A stretch of DNA of 46,501 bases from Lysobacterales bacterium (GTDB lineage: Bacteria > Pseudomonadota > Gammaproteobacteria > Xanthomonadales > SZUA-36). This document shows positions 34,360 through 43,779 of this stretch, one piece after another (position 1 is the stretch's first letter; the number at the start of each line of letters is the position of its first letter). The position numbers were made by a program, and so were the translations under genes. Where the stretch lies: positions 1 to 46,501 of the forward strand of contig JANQPM010000017.1 in assembly GCA_028289465.1 (NCBI GenBank). Direction: 5' to 3'. Below the pieces are notes generated by a model. That model did no database searches and was not told the origin of the DNA. It saw nothing but the letters and a program-made list of their open reading frames with translations.

Positions 34360-35492
34360 TTACCAGCGCCCGTAGCTCAGCTGGATAGAGTACTGCCCTC
34401 CGAAGGCAGGGGTCAGAGGTTCGAATCCTCTCGGGCGCGCCATTTTACATTTCGCGTTGTTGGAATCCCGTAAGAGTTTGAAAGGCAAGGCGATTTGGGG
34501 TGTTCGAAACCCTTCTTTGCGGTGATAGGTCAAACGCTTTGAAAAGGTAAGCTTTAGCACCATTCTTTTATGCTTCAATCGCTCTGATGACCAGAGTTTA
34601 TGCGGGTTTGAAAGAAAGGCGAGCGCGTGTTCGAACAATTCCTCCAGGGTGCCTTTCGGTTGAGTACTATTTTTCGATTTTTCGCCAGAATTGCTTTTTC
34701 TCTTTCCAGTTTAATAATCTGCTGTTCATAGGTATTGATCACCCGATCATTGGACGCCCGCACAATCCGACTGAGGAATTGATCAATCCTGGTTTCAACG
34801 GTTTTAAGCTGCTTCTTAGCCGCTTTCACTGACTCTGTGGCTTGGGACAGTCTATGGTTCCATGCGCCCTTAAACATGGCGCGGAATACCTTGAGTAACC
34901 CTTTTGTGGGAGTGAGTTGTTTAAGCAGCGTTTCAAAAGCATCTTCAATCCGGTCACGGGGAATAGACTTACCTTTACTGATGCAGCTCTGGTTGCGACA
35001 TAAATAATAAGCATAACGTTTGCTTTTGCCTTTCGACCAACACGCCGTTAAAGGCTTGTCACAATCACCGCATAAAACGAAGCCCCGAAGCGGAAAGTCC
35101 TTATTCAGGTCTTTGCGTGCCGGGGCTTTGGCTCCCTGTGTCAGCCGGTCTTGAATGCGTTGCCATGTAGCCAGAGAAACAAGCCCTTCATGCTGGCCTT
35201 CGGTGAGAGGGATTTTCCATTTCGGTGCTTCGACATAACCCGCATAGGCCACACGGGTTAATAATTCAGTGATGCGCTGGTTGCGGATTTGTCCATTCGG
35301 CAAATCTTTGGGATACACAGGCTGGCTTTCCAGAAAGCGTTTGACCTCAACCTGCGTTTCAAACCGCCCGGAGGCAAAGCCTTCGAGGGCTTCTTGAATA
35401 ATGGAGGCAATCGCATAGATTCCCCCCTTGTCTGTGCTGACAGCAAGGATGCCCATTCCAGGAGGCGCGTCAGCCGCGCCCCCACTTCTCAA
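34360..35492 (-). pseudogene. Large serine recombinase remnant (lacks catalytic domain, frameshifted)
   Basis: The main frame (34575-35492) holds the PF07508-like recombinase domain (ALEGFASGRFETQVEVKRFL), a zinc-ribbon (CGDCDKPLTACW ... CRNQSC) and a coiled coil, but no N-terminal resolvase catalytic domain with its serine. Near 34640 homology moves to another frame (EHALAFLSNPHKLWSSERLK), so one base has been lost or gained. This second frame ends in MARPRGFEPLTPAFGGQYS, which is tRNA-Arg read antisense, and stops at 34360. It would have driven integration of the island; it should now be inactive. Confidence 0.85.
34367..34442 (+). tRNA. tRNA-Arg (anticodon CCG), CCA encoded
   Basis: A complete cloverleaf: a 7-bp acceptor stem (GCGCCCG with CGGGCGC), a D arm, an anticodon stem CTGCC/GGCAG with loop CTCCGAA (anticodon CCG, codon CGG), a T arm AGAGG-TTCGAAT-CCTCT, discriminator G and an encoded CCA. 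It is the probable integration target of the island to its right: the recombinase remnant reads antisense into it. Confidence 0.95.
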
Positions 35493-35705
35493 TTTCTCCG
35501 AATTCTTGCCTCAATCAGGCGAAATGCAGGCAATCCGCATGGGGTTCTTACCTTTTGTGAAAAAGGGTGTGATAGGCTTGCGCTTCGTGGTTTAAAGGGG
35601 TTAAGGGCGGATCGTTTTGGCAACCCATTTTCAAAGACAACCTAACCCCGTGAGCCAGATGGCTCCGTTTATCGTTATTGTCGGATGTTTAAAGGAGGGC
35701 GCTTC

Positions 35706-38690
35706 GTGAAATCGTTCCTGTTGGCCGGCCTGTTGGGCCTAATTCAATTCACTCCCGATACACTCAATGCAGCCCCTGAAGTCGCCCCGATCTTGAAGGG
35801 CCAAGTCGATCTGCTCAATGAGCTGACCGAACGCCGGCGGGTGAACACGTTTTTCTCGAATGAGCAGTCGATTTTCCACGGTGTGCAAAAAGGCTTTGTT
35901 AACGTGGGTACGGGGAACCTGACCTTTGTGCGCCGGGATTTGGCCACTGTGGGACGTATTCCGGTGGTGTTCGCCCGCGTCTACGATAGCCGCTATAGCG
36001 GTGCTTCCGATTTTTCCCCTGGCTGGCGATTGAGTCTTGCTGAGATCATTGAAGAGTTGCCGGATGGCACTCTGGTCTATACCGACGACAGCCTGACTCA
36101 GACCCGCTTTGCACCGATCGGTTCGGGTTATGCCATCACACCAGCTCAGCCTTCCGATATTCGCGCAGTAGCACTCACCAACAGCGACACCCTCAAAGTC
36201 GATTACCGCAACCAATGGCAAAAGACATTCAAACGTCATGGCGAGGGGTATCGGCTGAAAAAAGTGAAAGATAACAACGGTAATAGTCTGGCCCTCAAGT
36301 ATCAAAATGGCCAATTGGCCTCGATAGCGGGGCAAAACGGCCGTTTTGTTGCCATCACCCGACACCCCAGTGGCCAGATCACGCAGGTGATGGACGACCA
36401 AGGCCGGACCGTGAACTATCACTACAATACCCAAGGCCAGCTCTCCAAAGTCATTGATCTGGGCGGCAATGCCTGGACCTACCGCTATACCGAGGACGGC
36501 CAACTGCGCCAGGTCAAAGACCCACGGGGTCATGAAGCCCTGAACGTGACCTACGACGATGACCAGGTCACACGCACCCGCATTCGCGGGGCCAAGTACC
36601 GCTATACCTACGATGATGAGACCACAACCGTCAAAGACGAAGCCGGCAATAAGAGCACGTTCACTCAGAACGAGGATGGGATCACGATCAAGGTGAAGAA
36701 CGCCGAAGGCTTTGTCAGCAAAATCCAGTTGGATGAAAATAACCAGGTCACGCAGCTCAAGCACAACGGCCAGAAACGGGGCACCTTCACCTATGATGAC
36801 TTCGGCAATCCCGCCCGGATGGTGCGCTATGACCAAGAAGGACTGGTTGAGCTGACCTATTTATTCGATTGGGAAGACCGGGTTGTTGAAATTGAGGGGA
36901 CGGACGGGACCACTCAAACCTTAAGCTACGATGAGAAGGGCAATCTCTTGTCCCAGAGCGAAAATGGTCAAGCCATCCAGTACCGCTACAATACTGACGG
37001 CGACTGGACCAGCCAAACGCTTGACGGGGAGACCATCGAATACCGGCATAATGCCGATGGGCTGTTAACCCGAATCACACAGAACGGATCCATCACCCGC
37101 TTTCGTTACAACGCCACCGGCCGTTTGGACCGGATTACGTTTCCGAATGGTAACCGCCACACCTATCAATACGATGCCCTGGGCTTTAGAACCCGAACCG
37201 AACGTAGTGACGGCAGTCATATGAACTATCAGTACGATAGTGCGGGCAATATGATCGAAAATGACGGTCAGCATGCGGATGGTGACACCTATGGCGAGCG
37301 GTTTACCCTGGATGCGGAAAACCGGGTAAGCCGGATGGATTTTCCCGAAAACCAGGGGCTGGATATCACTTATGATGATAAGGGTAATCCTATCACCCTG
37401 GACTGGGGTGATCGCACAATGTCTTGTGAATACGACCCAGAAGGCCGCTTGACCAAGGTCACGGACAGCGAAAAAGGAACCAGTGAATATACTTATCAGC
37501 CGGGTGAGGCCGATATCCGCAGGCAGCTAGATGACCGAACGGCAGGCACCCAGAGCAATCAGCGAAAGGCTTCGGCTACATTGCAAGCCCTGAACAACAC
37601 CAGCTACACCCGACCAGGCGGGACGCCGTGGCCTGTGCTTACTTTGGATAGCAATCTGGCGGTGATGGATTTACCGACCAATATCGGTTTGGTCGATCCT
37701 GGTGCGATCCAGCAATCCGCCAATCAACGCCGGCGGCTCTATAACGCTACAGCCTTTGACGATATTACCCAAAGGAGGTTCGATAAGGCTTCCAACAGCT
37801 TTTTCCTTCCGGCTGAATACGCAGCAGTCAATTGTGCGCTGGGGTGTTTTTTGGGAAGTATTACGCTAAATATACCATCAACGGTAAATGCGGGGTCATC
37901 GTTCACCATTGTCGCCGCAGCCAGCAACATTGGCCCTACCTGTGAGGCCATTACCTACGATTGGTACATCAACGGTGCTTATGTTCCAGGAGGGGCAAAT
38001 GGAACATTAACCACAATACTAACCGCGCTTGGAACGGTGGATATTGTTGGTCAAGCAGAAGGCGCTTGTGATCAATGTACGAGTATTGTGGCTGACACAG
38101 TTCAATCTAACTGTAATGATACTAATTACAATCATCATAGAAACGATCCAACCGAAAAATTTAACAACAACGATCAATGGGTTGATAATATTGGTAAGGC
38201 AGTAAATCCGTCTAATAATGACGTTAGAATTATCGGTACAATTAAGGCAAGAGTTTATGACTTTCCTAATCATACCGGCACCTTTGAACCCACAGCGCAG
38301 GAACTTGATAATGTTGTAGCAGGTATTGATGAATTCTGGGGGCTAGACAACTATGAGTATGCTTGTTCTGCTTACCGATATAAATCTGACTTAACGATAT
38401 CATCCCTCCATAATGCGGGATCAACGCTTTCTGATTATCTTCTCGTTGGGAAAGGTGGTGTTCCCGTAATTTATTCGGCAATAGCTGGTACAGGCGGAAG
38501 GACTATAAGAATTGGTGAATTTGAAGGCATATGGACGGGGGATGAAGAAGAAGTGGTAGGTCATGAGTTCGGTCACAATCTTGGATTCAGACACAATGAC
38601 AATACTACAAGCGATATTATGTACCCGGTCTATGTTACAAGCGGTGATGTGCATGGATATCACGCGCGTATTCTATCGGAAGATTATTAG
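35706..38690 (+). CDS. Secreted RHS-repeat protein with C-terminal metzincin protease domain
   Basis: A 994-residue protein; the GTG at 35706 has AGGAGG 7 bp upstream and gives a clean Sec signal peptide (1-22, ending LNA). A DUF6531-like region follows, then about 400 residues of RHS/YD repeats (many YxYDxxGN-type units). Next come a linker, a cysteine-containing Ig/PKD-like segment (about 720-800) and a C-terminal zinc protease with H953-E-F-G-H957-N-L-G-F-R-H963 and a Met-turn at D-I-M972-Y-P. This is the layout of a polymorphic toxin with a metzincin warhead. No DPxG auto-cleavage motif is clear. The ankyrin-repeat gene follows 5 bp later. Toxicity is inferred, not shown. Confidence 0.85.
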   Translation: MKSFLLAGLLGLIQFTPDTLNAAPEVAPILKGQVDLLNELTERRRVNTFFSNEQSIFHGVQKGFVNVGTGNLTFVRRDLATVGRIPVVFARVYDSRYSGASDFSPGWRLSLAEIIEELPDGTLVYTDDSLTQTRFAPIGSGYAITPAQPSDIRAVALTNSDTLKVDYRNQWQKTFKRHGEGYRLKKVKDNNGNSLALKYQNGQLASIAGQNGRFVAITRHPSGQITQVMDDQGRTVNYHYNTQGQLSKVIDLGGNAWTYRYTEDGQLRQVKDPRGHEALNVTYDDDQVTRTRIRGAKYRYTYDDETTTVKDEAGNKSTFTQNEDGITIKVKNAEGFVSKIQLDENNQVTQLKHNGQKRGTFTYDDFGNPARMVRYDQEGLVELTYLFDWEDRVVEIEGTDGTTQTLSYDEKGNLLSQSENGQAIQYRYNTDGDWTSQTLDGETIEYRHNADGLLTRITQNGSITRFRYNATGRLDRITFPNGNRHTYQYDALGFRTRTERSDGSHMNYQYDSAGNMIENDGQHADGDTYGERFTLDAENRVSRMDFPENQGLDITYDDKGNPITLDWGDRTMSCEYDPEGRLTKVTDSEKGTSEYTYQPGEADIRRQLDDRTAGTQSNQRKASATLQALNNTSYTRPGGTPWPVLTLDSNLAVMDLPTNIGLVDPGAIQQSANQRRRLYNATAFDDITQRRFDKASNSFFLPAEYAAVNCALGCFLGSITLNIPSTVNAGSSFTIVAAASNIGPTCEAITYDWYINGAYVPGGANGTLTTILTALGTVDIVGQAEGACDQCTSIVADTVQSNCNDTNYNHHRNDPTEKFNNNDQWVDNIGKAVNPSNNDVRIIGTIKARVYDFPNHTGTFEPTAQELDNVVAGIDEFWGLDNYEYACSAYRYKSDLTISSLHNAGSTLSDYLLVGKGGVPVIYSAIAGTGGRTIRIGEFEGIWTGDEEEVVGHEFGHNLGFRHNDNTTSDIMYPVYVTSGDVHGYHARILSEDY

Positions 38691-38695
38691 TAACA

Positions 38696-40540
38696 ATGCT
38701 TCGCCTTTCAGTAAAAGCACTTTTAGTATTGTCCGTGGTCTACGTTGGCCAAGGACTTGCTGACATCAGTCAAAGTTGCGAAGAAATAGACTCTCTGGAA
38801 TGCGCCATACATGCGGGAAGTTTGGATGATGCCGAAAGGCTTTTGACTTCCGGGGCTGATCCAAATTCTGAAATTCGTATTGCGCTGGACCCTGGCTCTA
38901 AATCAAAAAACAGAAAATGGCCGGCGCTTTTGTTCTCTATAGCAAATGGCAACGAAGATATTGCCCTGCTGTTACTCAAGCATGGCGCAGACCCCCTTTA
39001 TGACAACCGAGGTCGAATCCTTTATTCAGCCATAAATGCCGAAATGAATGGAGTGGTTGAATTCATTACGTCTCAACCTAATTTTAAGTCGACCGTCGAA
39101 GTATATGAAGCGGCGAATATCGGCCTGATTAATTTAGCAGTAAATCGTGGCGATTTTGATCTTGTAAATTTTTTGCTAGGTAGCGGGTTTGATCTATATA
39201 AGCAGACGAAATCCGCTTCATATTTAAGGGAGTCGCTTCATGCCGGAAATGAGTCCATGTTGAGGCTATTTCTTGCTCATGGGATAGAAATTACAAAAGT
39301 TAATGACAAAGATTCTCTAATACTCCACGCATCAAATAGCACCTACCCAGGAATGATGGCAGAGCTGATCAAGCGAAATATGCCACTAGCTAATTACAAT
39401 AGCGCCGAATCAACGCCGTTTCACCAGGCTTCGCTGAATTGCCGTCATCAGGAGTGGTTAATGAGTCTTCTGCTAAAGCAGAATATACCCGCATGTGAGG
39501 AAAGCCATGGCGGTGGTAGCGTTGTCAATCAGGAACTGCTTTTACGCAAAGCAGGCAAAAGCGTTCTGTCAACTTTTTCACTAAAGTTATTAGAAGAAAA
39601 ATGGGGAAGTTGTGAAACTGAAAATCAGTTTGACGATGTTTTTGCATTGGATGTAGTAAATGCTACTTCCAATGGTGCTTATGTCATTAATGACTGCGCT
39701 GATGTTCAATGTGCACTTTTGTCTTCGGATGATAAAAAAGCCGCCAAAGTCATTAAAGATCAATCACTGCGTTATGATACTAGCGTTACATTCAATGGGG
39801 TTGAGTTTCCTTTAATTCGCTGGATGCTTGCTTTAGGGGAAAATGATTCAGCCATTAATCTAGTGAGTTCTGATTTCTCTTGCTCCGCCTCTAATCAGTT
39901 ATCCCTTTTTCATGAGGGATTATCGCTCGGCCGGTTTCGTTTCTTGAACTACTTGTTGGCAAACGACCCACAATTTGATCAATATGTTTGTGCTGACGAA
40001 TTTGAACTGAACCCACTTCATCAATCAGTTCTTGCTGGCGATTATTCTATGGCAGAGAAACTGCTCAGCTCAGGTCAGAGTGTCAATCAAAAAGATGCCT
40101 TTGGGCTGCCGCCCGTCGCCTATGCTTTAGCCTTTGGTATGGAAGACTTCGTGACACTGTTTCTCGATCACGACGCAGACATGACCTTTACCAGCAGTCA
40201 CAATCAAAATGCTTCCCATATGGCCGCACTGGGTGATGTCGATTTAGATCACTTTATGACAATGGAAGAGATAGCTCCCTTGCTAGGTGCAATTGATTCC
40301 GTATTTGGTCGGAATTCAGTACTTACTGGTATGGCTAGTGATTGCCCCTACGGATATCCAGCCTTGTCGGTAAAATGGGGGAGCGCTGATGATGTAGAAG
40401 ATAAATTTGGCTTGGGCTATTCAAGCTATACCACTGTTTACGAGAGCGAATATGAGATAGATTCTCACGTATACAGTAAATCACTGCAAGATTTTTGCTC
40501 TGAGGACGATCACGCCGCGAAGTGCAGGCCGCCAGAGTAA
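38696..40540 (+). CDS. Exported ankyrin-repeat protein, candidate immunity partner
   Basis: A 614-residue protein with a signal peptide (about 1-22, ending GLA) and no lipobox, so it is predicted to be periplasmic. Ankyrin units lie near residues 33-60 (AGSLDDAERLLTSGADPN), 75-135, 145-175, 180-210 and 440-510 (AGDYSMAEKLLSSGQSVN; DFVTLFLDHDADM); the middle is more divergent with scattered cysteines. It begins 5 bp after the RHS-metzincin stop. Ankyrin proteins are a recognised immunity class in polymorphic toxin loci, and a periplasmic address would suit a secreted protease. Codon and base use are A/T-rich like the toxin tail. Confidence 0.75.
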   Translation: MLRLSVKALLVLSVVYVGQGLADISQSCEEIDSLECAIHAGSLDDAERLLTSGADPNSEIRIALDPGSKSKNRKWPALLFSIANGNEDIALLLLKHGADPLYDNRGRILYSAINAEMNGVVEFITSQPNFKSTVEVYEAANIGLINLAVNRGDFDLVNFLLGSGFDLYKQTKSASYLRESLHAGNESMLRLFLAHGIEITKVNDKDSLILHASNSTYPGMMAELIKRNMPLANYNSAESTPFHQASLNCRHQEWLMSLLLKQNIPACEESHGGGSVVNQELLLRKAGKSVLSTFSLKLLEEKWGSCETENQFDDVFALDVVNATSNGAYVINDCADVQCALLSSDDKKAAKVIKDQSLRYDTSVTFNGVEFPLIRWMLALGENDSAINLVSSDFSCSASNQLSLFHEGLSLGRFRFLNYLLANDPQFDQYVCADEFELNPLHQSVLAGDYSMAEKLLSSGQSVNQKDAFGLPPVAYALAFGMEDFVTLFLDHDADMTFTSSHNQNASHMAALGDVDLDHFMTMEEIAPLLGAIDSVFGRNSVLTGMASDCPYGYPALSVKWGSADDVEDKFGLGYSSYTTVYESEYEIDSHVYSKSLQDFCSEDDHAAKCRPPE

Positions 40541-41018
40541 AATATCTTTCCTCGTGTAGCGATATATCTCTAAGCCACAAGCGGTTTTCCGGCTGCTTAC
40601 GTCCAGTCTAGGCAGACTATGGTGGCCTAAACAAAATAGGTAGCTTAAAACAATCGTGATCTGTTTAAAGGCGCAGGTTTCCAGACAAAGCTGGAATAGA
40701 TTGGCTGCTATAAATCCTTTAGCAGTCGGTCAGGTGATGCAAGCTCGGTAGGCAGTAGTGTGCCTGGAGCGGCCACCGAAAAATTAGGTAAATACTATGC
40801 AGTAGCGTATTGCCGCAACCCAATATCGGGACAGATTCCACTTCTGTTTCTGCAATTTTGGTAGCATCAAAAATTCTTATGGTATAGTTAATGATTGCCC
40901 TGGCCAGTTCTATTTGATTATCGCCAAGTGTTATTCACTGGCCATAAGAAGACGATTCTGGCCTAGGAACTTCAATCAAAGTGATCGCTGAGGCCATCGC
41001 TACGATAGGAGACATATA
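40541..41018. other. 478-bp non-coding spacer with hairpins
   Basis: No gene is supported. Two consecutive hairpins occur near 40679-40717: TTCCAG/CTGGAA (40679-40696), then GGCTGCT/AGCAGTC. A 40-odd-codon open stretch follows without start or recognisable homology. Nearer the next gene is a long-spaced inverted repeat (40901-40944). It may be a decayed cassette remnant or a structured RNA. Confidence 0.4.
40901..40944. promoter_or_regulatory. Inverted repeat upstream of the GHKL ATPase gene
   Basis: TGGCCAGT (40901-40908) and ACTGGCCA (40937-40944) are perfect inverted copies 28 bp apart, 75 bp before the ATG at 41019; a TATAGT box lies just upstream (40883-40888). It could be a paired operator or a leader hairpin. 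Confidence 0.4.
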
Positions 41019-42878
41019 ATGTCTGATAACCACACCCCATTGGGCGGGACTAAGTCCTTGCCCATGTCCGTTGATAATGTTGGCTTTCTTCTGGACCGAT
41101 TAGGAGAAGATTGTGCGCCGCTGCAATACCTTCGGGAGCTGACCCAAAACTCTATAGAAGCTATAGAACGAACTGGTAAACCAGGAACAATTACATGGGA
41201 CGTCGATTGGATTTCCTATGATCTTGGTGGTGGTCCGATGAAGCTTTGCATCACTGACACCGGCGATGGAATGACTGGTGAGGAAATGGAGAAGTTCATT
41301 AATCAACTGTCGTCAAGTGGAAGCGAACAGTCGTTTTCATCAAACTATGGTGTCGGTGCTAAAATCGCCGCAGCAACAAAAAATCCTGCGGGTGTAGTTT
41401 ACCAATCCTGGAAAGACAGTAACGGCTATATGATCCAGCTTGATAAGAACTTAGATACAGGAAATTACGGGCTACGACAATGGGAAATAAATGACGGCAC
41501 TTACTCATTTCATTTCCCTCTCGAAGATGATGTGAAACCTAAGCAAATAGGTGAGCACGGCACTAAGGTTATCCTTCTGGGTAATGACAACAGCGCATCT
41601 ACTATTGAGCCTCCAAAAGAGGCAGCAGCCCCATCACGTTGGATATCGAAATACTTAAATACACGGTACTTCAAATTCCCAGAAGACATTACGGTGCAAG
41701 CCCGTGAGGGCTGGGATTTTCCTCGTTCAGATAGCGACCGTAATAAGCTTCGTACAATAATAGGCCAGAAACGATACCTAGATCAGCATTGCGAGATATC
41801 GGGAGTCCATGAATTGGAGTCTGCCCGCGTGCATTGGTGGATACTCAAGGATGAATCAGCGATAAGCAATAACAGCGGTTATATAGAGTCCGCAGGGCAT
41901 GCTGCTGCGCTTTATCAAAATGAGTTATACGACCGTGCTACTGCGAGAGCTGGAACGGCAATGCTTCAGCAGTTTGGCATTTTATTTGGCGTTAAGTATG
42001 TCGTTCTTTATGTCGAGCCTATCGCAGGGGATCTAAATACATTGACGACTAACACAGCTCGTACTACTTTATTGCTCAATAAAGACAAGCTGCCATGGTC
42101 AGATTGGGCATATGAGTTCCGCCAGACCATGCCTTCAGAACTTGCCGAGTTCGTTAAGTCTCAAGCCTCTGCAGCAACTGATAAAGACCATCTTAAAAGC
42201 ATCAAAGAACGTTTAAAAAATGTTATGGATCTTTACAAAGTCAGCAGGTACAGGCCCTCGCCTGAAGGGATGTATCTTGCCGACCAATCGTCATCCGTAA
42301 CAGCAGGCGATGCCCCGTTTTCGGGCAATGAATCGAAAACTAAGGGTGGTAGTGGGAATTCGCTTAATACGGTCACGCCAGGGGTACGCGATGGCGAAAT
42401 AGGTAATATATATCAACTGTTTGAGAAGAGCGGCGGCACACCAAGCAAGAAAGAAAAAACCGATCCTTTCCCAGTTGTGAAGTGGTTGAGCATCAAGGAC
42501 GGCACACGAAGTGAAGGTGATATGGAGGACAAAGCAGCAAAGTATCTTGCCGACCAGAATACGTTGCTTGTGAACGCAGATTTCCGTGTCTTTTCTGATA
42601 TGGTGAATCGCCTTGTCAAGGAAAAAAATCCCGGTAATACAATTGAGATCGGTGAAATTGTTACAGATGTGGTCCACCAATGGTTCGAACAAGCATTAAT
42701 TGAAACTGTAATAGGTGTGCAGCAGCTTAAGGGTAGCAAGGAGTGGCCCCCTAATGACATCGAGCGTGCGCTATCTTCTGAAGCGCTAACGTCTGCACTT
42801 ATGCAGCGTTACCATGTGTATATTGCCTGCAAGCGTGAGCTTGGTGCGAAGCTAGGAAAAGCAATGAGCCAGCAATGA
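41019..42878 (+). CDS. GHKL-fold (Hsp90-like) ATPase of unknown function
   Basis: A 619-residue soluble protein. The N-terminal ATP-binding domain has the N box E40-LTQN44-SIEA, G1 box D80-TGDGM and G2 motif GVGAK (111-115), with a flexible SSSGS lid between, as in MutL/Hsp90/topoisomerase VI. No histidine-kinase H box and no known transducer domain is evident; a Ser/Gly-rich low-complexity linker (about 425-460) separates a helical C-terminal domain. A GGAG site lies 7 bp before the ATG. It is a lone gene on the island. Stand-alone GHKL proteins occur in phage-defence and DNA-processing settings, but I cannot place it in a named system. Confidence 0.7.
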   Translation: MSDNHTPLGGTKSLPMSVDNVGFLLDRLGEDCAPLQYLRELTQNSIEAIERTGKPGTITWDVDWISYDLGGGPMKLCITDTGDGMTGEEMEKFINQLSSSGSEQSFSSNYGVGAKIAAATKNPAGVVYQSWKDSNGYMIQLDKNLDTGNYGLRQWEINDGTYSFHFPLEDDVKPKQIGEHGTKVILLGNDNSASTIEPPKEAAAPSRWISKYLNTRYFKFPEDITVQAREGWDFPRSDSDRNKLRTIIGQKRYLDQHCEISGVHELESARVHWWILKDESAISNNSGYIESAGHAAALYQNELYDRATARAGTAMLQQFGILFGVKYVVLYVEPIAGDLNTLTTNTARTTLLLNKDKLPWSDWAYEFRQTMPSELAEFVKSQASAATDKDHLKSIKERLKNVMDLYKVSRYRPSPEGMYLADQSSSVTAGDAPFSGNESKTKGGSGNSLNTVTPGVRDGEIGNIYQLFEKSGGTPSKKEKTDPFPVVKWLSIKDGTRSEGDMEDKAAKYLADQNTLLVNADFRVFSDMVNRLVKEKNPGNTIEIGEIVTDVVHQWFEQALIETVIGVQQLKGSKEWPPNDIERALSSEALTSALMQRYHVYIACKRELGAKLGKAMSQQ

Positions 42879-43221
42879 GTTTATAGCCTTTGGTTGTGCC
42901 GATTGCAGTGATGTCCATCCTCCGAAGAGAGTGGAGTAGAATGGCGGAAATCTAACCCGGATTATTGGTGCCTAACCCAGCCGCATCTAGCTCCCATGAC
43001 TAGCGGCGCCCGCTCCGGCGGGCTGCCTGCGGTCCCATAGACCGGGGACTCAGCGAGGAGGAATACGCCGGGTTGGTCGAATCAAGCGGTTATGGCGAAA
43101 TTATCCATTTCTGAAGAACGTGCTCAGTAGGTGTTTGCCGGTGCATCCGACGCAACGGTGGCAAAAATCGACCGATATCACTCTACAATATGGGTGAGAT
43201 GCCGTATCGGTATCGCTAGTT
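42879..43221. other. 343-bp spacer at the probable island edge
   Basis: It holds a short copy of the dispersed repeat (42994-43036) and, directly after it, a 22-codon open remnant (43046-43114, GLSEEEYAGLVESSGYGE) that may be the end of a decayed gene. GC content rises from left to right. The region just before the sigma factor gene should hold its promoter, but no clear boxes are seen. Confidence 0.4.
42994..43036. repeat. Dispersed repeat, short fragment (copy 3)
   Basis: It corresponds to 17913-17955 of copy 2: CCATG, then CGGCGCCCGCTCCGGCGGG, then GCCTGCGG with a few differences. Only this 3' end of the element is present. Confidence 0.6.
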
Positions 43222-43779
43222 GTGGTTTTGGAGAATCAGGATTTGAGTCGGGAGTCGCGAGCACGGGTCGCCCAGTTGTTTAGTGATCATCGTGATCGCT
43301 TGCGGCAGTACCTGTCCGCTCGCCTTGCGAATCCGGACGATGCGGCCGAATTGGCTCAGGAGGCCTACCTGCGACTCCTGCACACCAAACGGGCAGACCT
43401 CGTCCGCCACCCGCAGGCCTATCTGTTTCGAATTGCACGGAACCTGTTGCATGAGCTGTACACAGGGCGGCAGATGCGGATTGATGCAGGCGTGGCGGCG
43501 GAAGTCGAGCTTGACGATCTGGAATCGGCGGAACCATCGCCAGACGACTTCGCGGTGCTCGCAGCGCGGCGGCGGATGATTGGAAAAGCGATTAACGGAC
43601 TCCCGGCCAAATGCCAGGCGGCGCTGGTGCTGCACCTGCGCGAAGGATTGACGCAAAAGGAAATTGCCGCACGTATGGACCTTTCACGACAAATGGTACA
43701 AAAATACTTGGCGCGCGGACTGGCGCATTGCCGGAAGCGCTTGCGGCACGTTGCCGCCGAAGAGCGAGGTCAGCGATGA
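43222..43779 (+). CDS. FecI-type ECF RNA polymerase sigma factor
   Basis: A 185-residue ECF sigma factor with region 2 (about 12-80, LAQEAYLRLL, HPQAYLFRIARNL) and region 4 (about 118-170, LREGLTQKEIAARMDLSRQMVQKYLARGL). It should direct transcription of the receptor gene downstream when released by FecR signalling. GTG at 43222 is taken as start; a TTG at 43243 is an alternative. Its stop overlaps the fecR-like start (ATGA). Confidence 0.9.
   Translation: MVLENQDLSRESRARVAQLFSDHRDRLRQYLSARLANPDDAAELAQEAYLRLLHTKRADLVRHPQAYLFRIARNLLHELYTGRQMRIDAGVAAEVELDDLESAEPSPDDFAVLAARRRMIGKAINGLPAKCQAALVLHLREGLTQKEIAARMDLSRQMVQKYLARGLAHCRKRLRHVAAEERGQR

Follow-up and report, generated by a model that had tools for sequence, protein, structure and literature searches.

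The locus considered here raises the question of what a GHKL-type ATPase does when its gene stands on an island beside a tRNA gene, with no partner named for it. An earlier note, made from the DNA letters alone, had suggested that the gene might be a single-gene defence or chaperone-like system. In the window (the whole stretch of 46,501 nucleotides of Lysobacterales DNA that was analysed), the gene and the features that define its setting are as follows.

34366..34442, + strand: tRNA-Arg (CCG), at the left edge of the low-GC region
34575..35492, - strand: serine recombinase remnant, with Recombinase and zinc-ribbon domains only
41007..41011, + strand: ribosome-binding site AGGAG, 7 bases 5' of the ATG
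41019..42878, + strand: GHKL-S5 ATPase gene, 619 aa, ATG start, complete ORF

It will be argued that the window gene is probably part of bacterial immunity, because its relatives often adjoin anti-virus genes.

Genomic setting of the window gene

The gene lies in a low-GC stretch at 34-43 kb, where GC is 0.41-0.54, compared with about 0.60 in both flanks. The serine recombinase that adjoins the tRNA-Arg gene is 5'-truncated and lacks the N-terminal catalytic domain, and is likely a remnant of the element that delivered the island. An island beside a tRNA, as described in the earlier note, is therefore present, with ends left undefined because attachment repeats are only weak or absent: the anticodon arm of the tRNA is matched only weakly (81% over 16 bases) at 42919-42934, and no exact shared stretch of at least 10 bases was found between 34366-34560 and 42879-43400.

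The GHKL gene is stand-alone in the window, because its start is 478 bp from the ankyrin-repeat gene that precedes it and the next same-strand frame of at least 80 aa after it starts at 43222. Pfam searches of the five neighbouring proteins revealed RHS, ankyrin, recombinase, sigma and FecR domains, and neither HamA/HamB nor GajA/GajB was found among these five beside the window gene, so that the lack of a named partner is true within the window. A sigma factor and FecR gene, then a TonB-type receptor frame (assigned by eye), lie beyond the GHKL gene, where GC is normal. A promoter and terminator scan of 40400-43300 returned fewer promoter-like sites than were found in shuffles, with none on the gene strand.

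As a separate observation, the segment at 35685-40540 holds two genes: the first encodes an RHS-repeat protein in which DUF6531 was recognised, together with a weak metallopeptidase-like match at the C-terminus, and the ankyrin-repeat gene begins 5 bp further on. Both proteins have N-terminal stretches that, by eye, resemble signal peptides, and the pair may represent a secreted protein and its partner.

ATPase and S5 modules

The catalytic and transducer elements of the protein are positioned as follows.

41133..41150, + strand: N box, R39-E40-L-T-Q-N44, with R39, E40 and N44 kept in 41 of 41 alignment rows
41256..41273, + strand: G1 box, D80-T-G-D-G84-M85, from motif and alignment
41349..41363, + strand: G2 box, G111-V-G-A-K115, from motif and alignment
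41688..42179, + strand: S5-type transducer domain, about residues 224-387, from VIA-align matches to Hsp90, SMCHD1 and MORC ATPases through about residue 387
42051..42065, + strand: N345-T-A-R348-T motif of the S5 domain, with R348 in 40 of 41 rows

With its N, G1 and G2 boxes and its ATPase fold, the window protein is a member of the GHKL ATPase superfamily. The alignment of 41 rows comprises 11 close, 8 distant bacterial and 22 viral sequences, without L002 (a broken copy) and L010 (whose row starts late); R39, E40, N44, G84 and G113 are identical in all 41 rows, position 80 is occupied by D in 28 rows and by N in 13, and K115 is retained in 37. On the window protein, the Pfam HATPase_c model reaches 26.1 bits, just below its cut-off of 26.4, and a profile built from 35 relatives matched Hsp90 N-domains in the PDB with E of about 1e-8. 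No full-length family for the protein was found in Pfam, NCBIfam, PADLOC or PHROGs, and none of the 5027 models of PADLOC-DB 2.0.0 matched it at E<=10. A match to SKIP_SNW was also seen and was judged to be chance.

The AlphaFold2 model of the protein has a mean pLDDT of 78.6, with low confidence at residues 1-17, 98-110 and 409-480, the second of which is the expected ATP lid, just before the G2 box. When compared by VIA-align, residues of about 8-387 match Hsp90 (Z 19.8, rmsd 4.5 A, 303 residues), SMCHD1 (Z 19.8, rmsd 4.7 A, 319 residues), MORC3 (Z 18.7, rmsd 4.0 A, 296 residues) and MORC2 (Z 18.4, rmsd 4.4 A, 320 residues), and the four matches are nearly tied. Judged from the S5 match of this predicted structure and the conserved R348, the protein is of the GHKL plus S5 type that includes MORC, MutL, topoisomerase and Hsp90. 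R348, which we take to parallel the catalytic arginine of Hsp90, is a candidate catalytic arginine. The modelled fold fits Hsp90 as well as MORC, and the protein may have a chaperone-like role.

Linker and C-terminal domain

Two further regions follow the ATPase-S5 module.

42243..42458, + strand: disordered low-complexity linker, residues 409-480, pLDDT <50
42471..42866, + strand: C-terminal domain, about residues 485-616, modelled as three strands followed by five helices

When folded separately, the C-terminal domain reached a pLDDT of 94.7. It is not covered by any match in Pfam or NCBIfam at E<=10, Foldseek against the PDB gave a best E of 1.0 and a probability of at most 0.11 in the best 50 of 145 rows, and the best VIA-align match in the PDB (Z 4.9) was a designed protein. 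The domain as modelled thus has no convincing match by Foldseek or VIA-align, which is not in itself proof of a new fold. A sequence-profile match to RNF8 is weak (E 0.009) and extends over 44 positions. Among the C-terminal positions counted, only P485 (36 of 41 rows) and N519 (38 of 41) are widely conserved, and no shared catalytic site is visible for this reason; E503, D521, D527, R597 and H599 do not vary among the 11 close rows and may have a functional role in the close family.

Together, these results agree with the reading frame, the intact boxes, the low-complexity linker and the new-looking C-terminal domain that had been noted from the DNA alone. The statement that the protein is not MutL, HtpG or gyrase also holds at the level of families, with the ATPase-S5 fold being closest to Hsp90 and MORC/SMCHD1.

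Distribution of the family

The close family consists of 12 loci besides the window, 45-67% identical and from several phyla, and these relatives are located in bacterial genomes and one plasmid. Nine were obtained from a one-genome-per-species scan of 84,980 genomes with six exact peptide patterns, a scan that is far from exhaustive, one from a plasmid collection, and two from alignment searches. Occurrence of the gene is rare and patchy. No match at E<=1e-8 was found in 20 relatives of the host, placing the gene in 1 of 21 genomes with the host included, and the host alone among 398 genomes of its own phylum has a close match. Six weaker matches (E<=0.001) were found in that phylum, two of which were full-length and were used; G345 (residues 16-231) and G151, G194 and G197 (ATPase part only) were left out. 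In five phylum samples, each including its centre genome, close matches were found in 1 of 288, 2 of 297, 2 of 294, 1 of 297 and 1 of 296 genomes, with 3 further, more distant matches in the third (2 of 294). G1167, matched in two pieces, was left out.

A quick tree, which has several long branches and includes 22 viral relatives, recovered the close family as one clade (SH-aLRT 99). Within this clade Acidobacteriota appear in three places and Planctomycetota in two, and because these phyla recur in separate places, the tree suggests that the close family has spread horizontally. No dN/dS ratio is given because dS was saturated in three pairs, for which dN was 0.10-0.19. One member of the close family, at L002:10001-12393, is a 67%-identical relative disrupted beyond residue ~556 by the insertion of a reading frame, presumably that of an IS200-type transposase from its appearance; an integrase-like gene and phage-like genes were seen by eye in its surroundings.

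Distant relatives, 21-24% identical over their full length, are present on plasmids of Alphaproteobacteria and in two genomes that belong to the host's phylum. With the wider alignment, 44 further distant relatives were located in metagenomic viral contigs, of which 25 entered a subsequent alignment and 22 the tree. A tblastn search of the window protein against 50,697 phage records gave no match, the L064 and L025 proteins likewise had none among phage records, and the close-family alignment matched a single viral contig, 35% identical. Ten relatives (nine of them viral) were compared with PHROGs, and apart from two weak matches for L037, none was found at E<=0.001.

Neighbours of the close family

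With neighbouring genes predicted by a simple ORF caller, five of the 12 close loci (L003, L004, L009, L077 and L078) were found to carry a gene with a PADLOC match (E<=1e-10) no more than 200 bp away, and at two of these five the defence neighbours are unmistakable. At L004, HamA is located 200 bp downstream of the GHKL gene and is followed by HamB, with PADLOC scores of 397 and 788 bits, and the two constitute a Hachiman system. At L077, Vsr is located 133 bp upstream on the opposite strand, with a C5-methylase beyond it. An OLD/AriAB-like ATPase 12 bp downstream at L078 and an SMC-like ATPase 171 bp downstream at L009, for which LmuB is the best PADLOC model, match PADLOC only as generic SMC/OLD types. 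DUF3800 genes are found 63 bp downstream at L003, where PADLOC DUF3800_VII also matches, and 16 bp downstream at L010, where the match is just below the Pfam cut-off and PADLOC gave none at 1e-10. L007 has a DUF5677 gene 122 bp downstream, with no PADLOC match, and L006 has a UvrD-like helicase 817 bp upstream, divergently oriented. A defence-type, DUF3800 or DUF5677 gene is thus located within 817 bp at eight of the 12 close loci other than the window. The remaining four (L002, L005, L008 and L011) have no recognised defence neighbour: nothing recognised adjoins the broken L002 copy, a DUF2971 protein being about 1 kb away, and no gene was recognised among the neighbours scanned at L005, L008 and L011.

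Two of these loci provided additional observations. In the divergent cluster at L006:4268-9132, the UvrD-like helicase is accompanied by a methyltransferase-like protein and by a protein that weakly matches ADP-ribosyltransferase, and the cluster is possibly an undescribed system. At L008:11859-12602, a same-strand frame of 247 aa begins 31 bp beyond the GHKL gene; it is, by eye, possibly membrane-associated, and no match to it was found in Pfam or PADLOC.

The 77 proteins within 5 kb of the 12 family genes matched 148 PADLOC models at E<=1e-10, with HamA, HamB, methylase, DruM, PtuA, mad3 and ATPase models among the matches listed. As a control, 105 proteins from 14 arbitrarily placed 10-kb segments matched 10 models at the same threshold: mad3 in six proteins, and CARF regulators, TPR, SAVED_CHAT, LmuB, mad8 and BovA in one protein each. 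For this control, segments starting from round coordinates were chosen by hand in seven genomes, four of them on a contig bearing a family gene; one of the genomes, G1055, holds only a distant relative, and five test-set genomes and the plasmid are unrepresented. PADLOC models are not genes, large systems having many models, and the difference between 148 and 10 is indicative rather than a statistical test. A lack of defence enrichment, which the earlier note had set against its own suggestion, did not occur within this small sample and rough control.

Neighbours of distant and viral relatives

Among the distant relatives, the plasmid locus of Agrobacterium (L012) has GajA and then GajB directly next to the GHKL gene (733 and 592 bits), and the plasmid locus of Dinoroseobacter (L013) has a 461-aa gene, then GajA (731 bits), then an annotated UvrD helicase. 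A restriction endonuclease is located about 1.1 kb upstream in L086 (Rhizobium, conjugative plasmid), a TPR protein is encoded next after the GHKL gene in L014 (Acidisoma), a C5-methylase lies alongside at L079, and type I R-M genes are near at L080. Apart from these assignments, the 461-aa protein between the GHKL gene and GajA (L013:11929-13314) has no PADLOC match and is absent in the Agrobacterium version. On three plasmids (L012:9788-9985, L013:9757-9987, L086:7769-7990), a short ORF, about 65-76 codons long, precedes the GHKL gene with a gap of 10-12 bp, and is possibly a small regulator or partner.

For the viral relatives L024, L025, L031, L033 and L041, a PD-(D/E)XK-like gene follows directly in all five (E 2.7e-5 to 1e-3), with only those of L025 and L033 exceeding the Pfam cut-off. 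The GHKL gene and the PD-(D/E)XK-like nuclease gene are seen as a recurrent pair in these five related viral contigs. Terminase (L022), C5-methylase (L057) and 5'-3' exonuclease (L064) genes are also found nearby in viral contigs. Because viral contigs carry distant relatives, the function of the family may not be purely defensive.

Comparison with known GHKL proteins

MORC and SMCHD1 have the ATPase and transducer fold in common with the window protein (Z about 18-20 over ~300 residues), but the C-terminal domain differs, and the window protein is without a Pfam CW or hinge domain. A strict regular expression for the MORC S5 motif, GhXhhpXXRhl, found no S5 match in the 41 rows, the sole match being at residue 51 of v36, outside S5. 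To our knowledge, few bacterial MORC relatives have been experimentally tested.

According to a prediction published in 2008, MORC and paraMORC proteins would be ATP-driven engines that operate with nucleases and helicases in R-M loci (PMC2292703). In the same paper, paraMORC1-5 likewise combine GHKL and S5 modules with a C-terminal extension of their own, have a scattered distribution, and share C5-methylase, Vsr and nucleases as kinds of neighbour. The comparison with paraMORC1-5 was made by published descriptions. Many neighbours of the present family are Hachiman, Gabija, OLD-like or DUF3800, in contrast to R-M for paraMORC; the R-M trait is seen as C5-methylase and Vsr at L077 and as methylase or type I R-M at the distant L079 and L080, and the other loci differ. 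The ExxxH trait of paraMORC2 is present at residues 281-293 in seven of the 11 close rows and absent from the other four. The paraMORC3/Shedu type I-D nuclease domain (RE fold, DUF4263) has no Pfam match in the protein at E<=10, no TIR domain (the paraMORC4 trait) is fused to the window protein by Pfam, and the HxH of paraMORC5 was found after residue 400 in none of the 11 close rows, with HxH present in three of the 22 viral rows.

The type I-D Shedu protein VcSduA, as described in PMC12137116, is likewise a GHKL ATPase tied to defence and a nuclease: GHKL is fused to the nuclease, the protein protects against phage, and the ATPase mutant E27A and nuclease mutants do not. However, VcSduA has a DUF4263 nuclease domain and the window protein is without one. 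The HEF_HK/Response_reg_2 elements near R-M (PMC8011034) are alike in having an N-terminal HATPase-type domain and C5-methylase neighbours, whereas no HEF_HK was found in the window protein (Pfam, E<=10) and no Response_reg_2 in the five neighbours scanned. Hsp90/HtpG provided the best PDB profile matches and a similar fold for residues ~8-387, but the NCBIfam HtpG model scores 21.3 bits against a cut-off of 371, far below threshold, and fold searches with the window C-terminal domain gave no Hsp90 match. Tiamat is another GHKL protein of defence.

T4 rIIA has the GHKL core with N, G1 and G2 boxes in common with the window protein. Membership in the rIIA family was set aside, as the hhalign match covers only profile columns 27-136, i.e. 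the GHKL core, and the close-family HMM scores rIIA at no more than 2.5 bits. An annotated rIIB follows rIIA in five of nine phage regions. No description of the present family was found in the accessible parts of a mostly open-access literature on GHKL, Hsp90 and MORC proteins in defence.

Proposed function and alternatives

The defence role suggested at the outset is favored by context, in the five of 12 loci with a PADLOC match within 200 bp and in the Gabija genes of distant relatives, but is not favored by the four of 12 without a defence neighbour. The further proposal of a single-gene system found no support, in that relatives have varying, often same-strand neighbours.

Tentatively, and with somewhat less than even confidence, the family is regarded as mobile defence cargo that encodes a MORC/paraMORC-type clamp or switch, one that dimerises and depends on ATP. 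Several of the neighbouring defence genes are, we presume, known or predicted nucleases. As the protein is the same kind of ATPase, has no recognisable nuclease of its own, and has relatives whose neighbours include nuclease genes of several kinds, the simplest proposal is that it serves as a clamp or switch by which a separate nuclease is licensed; a paraMORC-like ATPase acting on separately encoded nucleases in defence is accordingly the best reading, held with the same reserve. Going beyond the ATPase-S5 module and the defence neighbours, we infer that ATP would close the N-terminal gates of a dimer around DNA or nucleoprotein, with the lid (residues 98-110) closing and R348 completing the ATP site. 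The linker might set the size of the cavity, the C-terminal domain might dimerise or recruit a partner, and closure would then license a nuclease encoded by a separate gene to act on invading DNA. The slot for the partner would be interchangeable, accommodating HamA/HamB, GajA/GajB, an OLD-like ATPase, DUF3800, or Vsr with a methylase. This slot is empty in the window, and the protein would therefore act alone, act with an unlinked partner, or have lost its partner.

An unlikely alternative is a phage or mobile-element ATPase with a part in phage DNA metabolism, superinfection exclusion or counter-defence (an rIIA-like role), present as island cargo. Such a role is consistent with the 44 viral-contig relatives, some of them beside terminase, 5'-3' exonuclease or PD-(D/E)XK-like nuclease, and with rIIA models among the structural matches; T4-type rIIA, also a GHKL protein, is listed with counter-defence systems in PMC7824862. 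It is opposed by the location of the 12 close relatives in bacterial genomes and one plasmid, by the phage records, which gave no tblastn match, and the lone viral contig found by alignment, by the restriction of rIIA similarity to the GHKL core, and by the Hachiman, methylase/Vsr and DUF3800 genes that adjoin close-family loci.

Less likely still is a single-gene, chaperone-like defence protein whose C-terminal domain would sense a phage protein, with the cell then killed or arrested. The window gene is stand-alone, the fold is Hsp90-like, and L002, L005, L008 and L011 are without a recognised partner; however, the neighbours at the other eight close loci argue against it, and the C-terminal domain has no recognisable effector motif. 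It is improbable that the gene is the orphan of a two-gene system, drifting after loss of its partner: the missing partner, the truncated island recombinase and the insertion in the L002 copy would fit, but the window copy is full length, with all examined catalytic residues, and is preceded by a good ribosome-binding site. That the protein is a housekeeping GHKL enzyme, of DNA repair or otherwise, is very improbable in view of the rare and patchy occurrence of the gene (1 of 21 in the host and its relatives, 1 or 2 genomes per phylum sample), even with MutL and topoisomerase ATPase domains having the same fold and L005 and L011 lacking a defence neighbour, and the housekeeping family that the earlier note had named as counting against its idea did not emerge within the small sample.

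In summary, the reading preferred here, a clamp or switch ATPase that would license separately encoded nucleases, concerns a family that is outside all defence models searched, has its own C-terminal domain, and is found beside Gabija and Hachiman genes in bacteria and beside nucleases in viral contigs. MORC-type GHKL-S5 ATPases are described as silencing transposons in plants and animals. A broader possibility, which is doubtful at present, is that an unrecognised superfamily of ~600-aa GHKL-S5 proteins in bacteria and phages provides an interchangeable head, a common licensing or trigger subunit of different nuclease systems. If that were true, the same ATPase with its own C-terminal domain would serve Gabija, Hachiman, OLD-like, DUF3800, Vsr/methylase and phage PD-(D/E)XK systems alike. 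The gene is short and tractable and has a clear catalytic glutamate, and a role of a MORC-like clamp for a nuclease would be directly testable with it.
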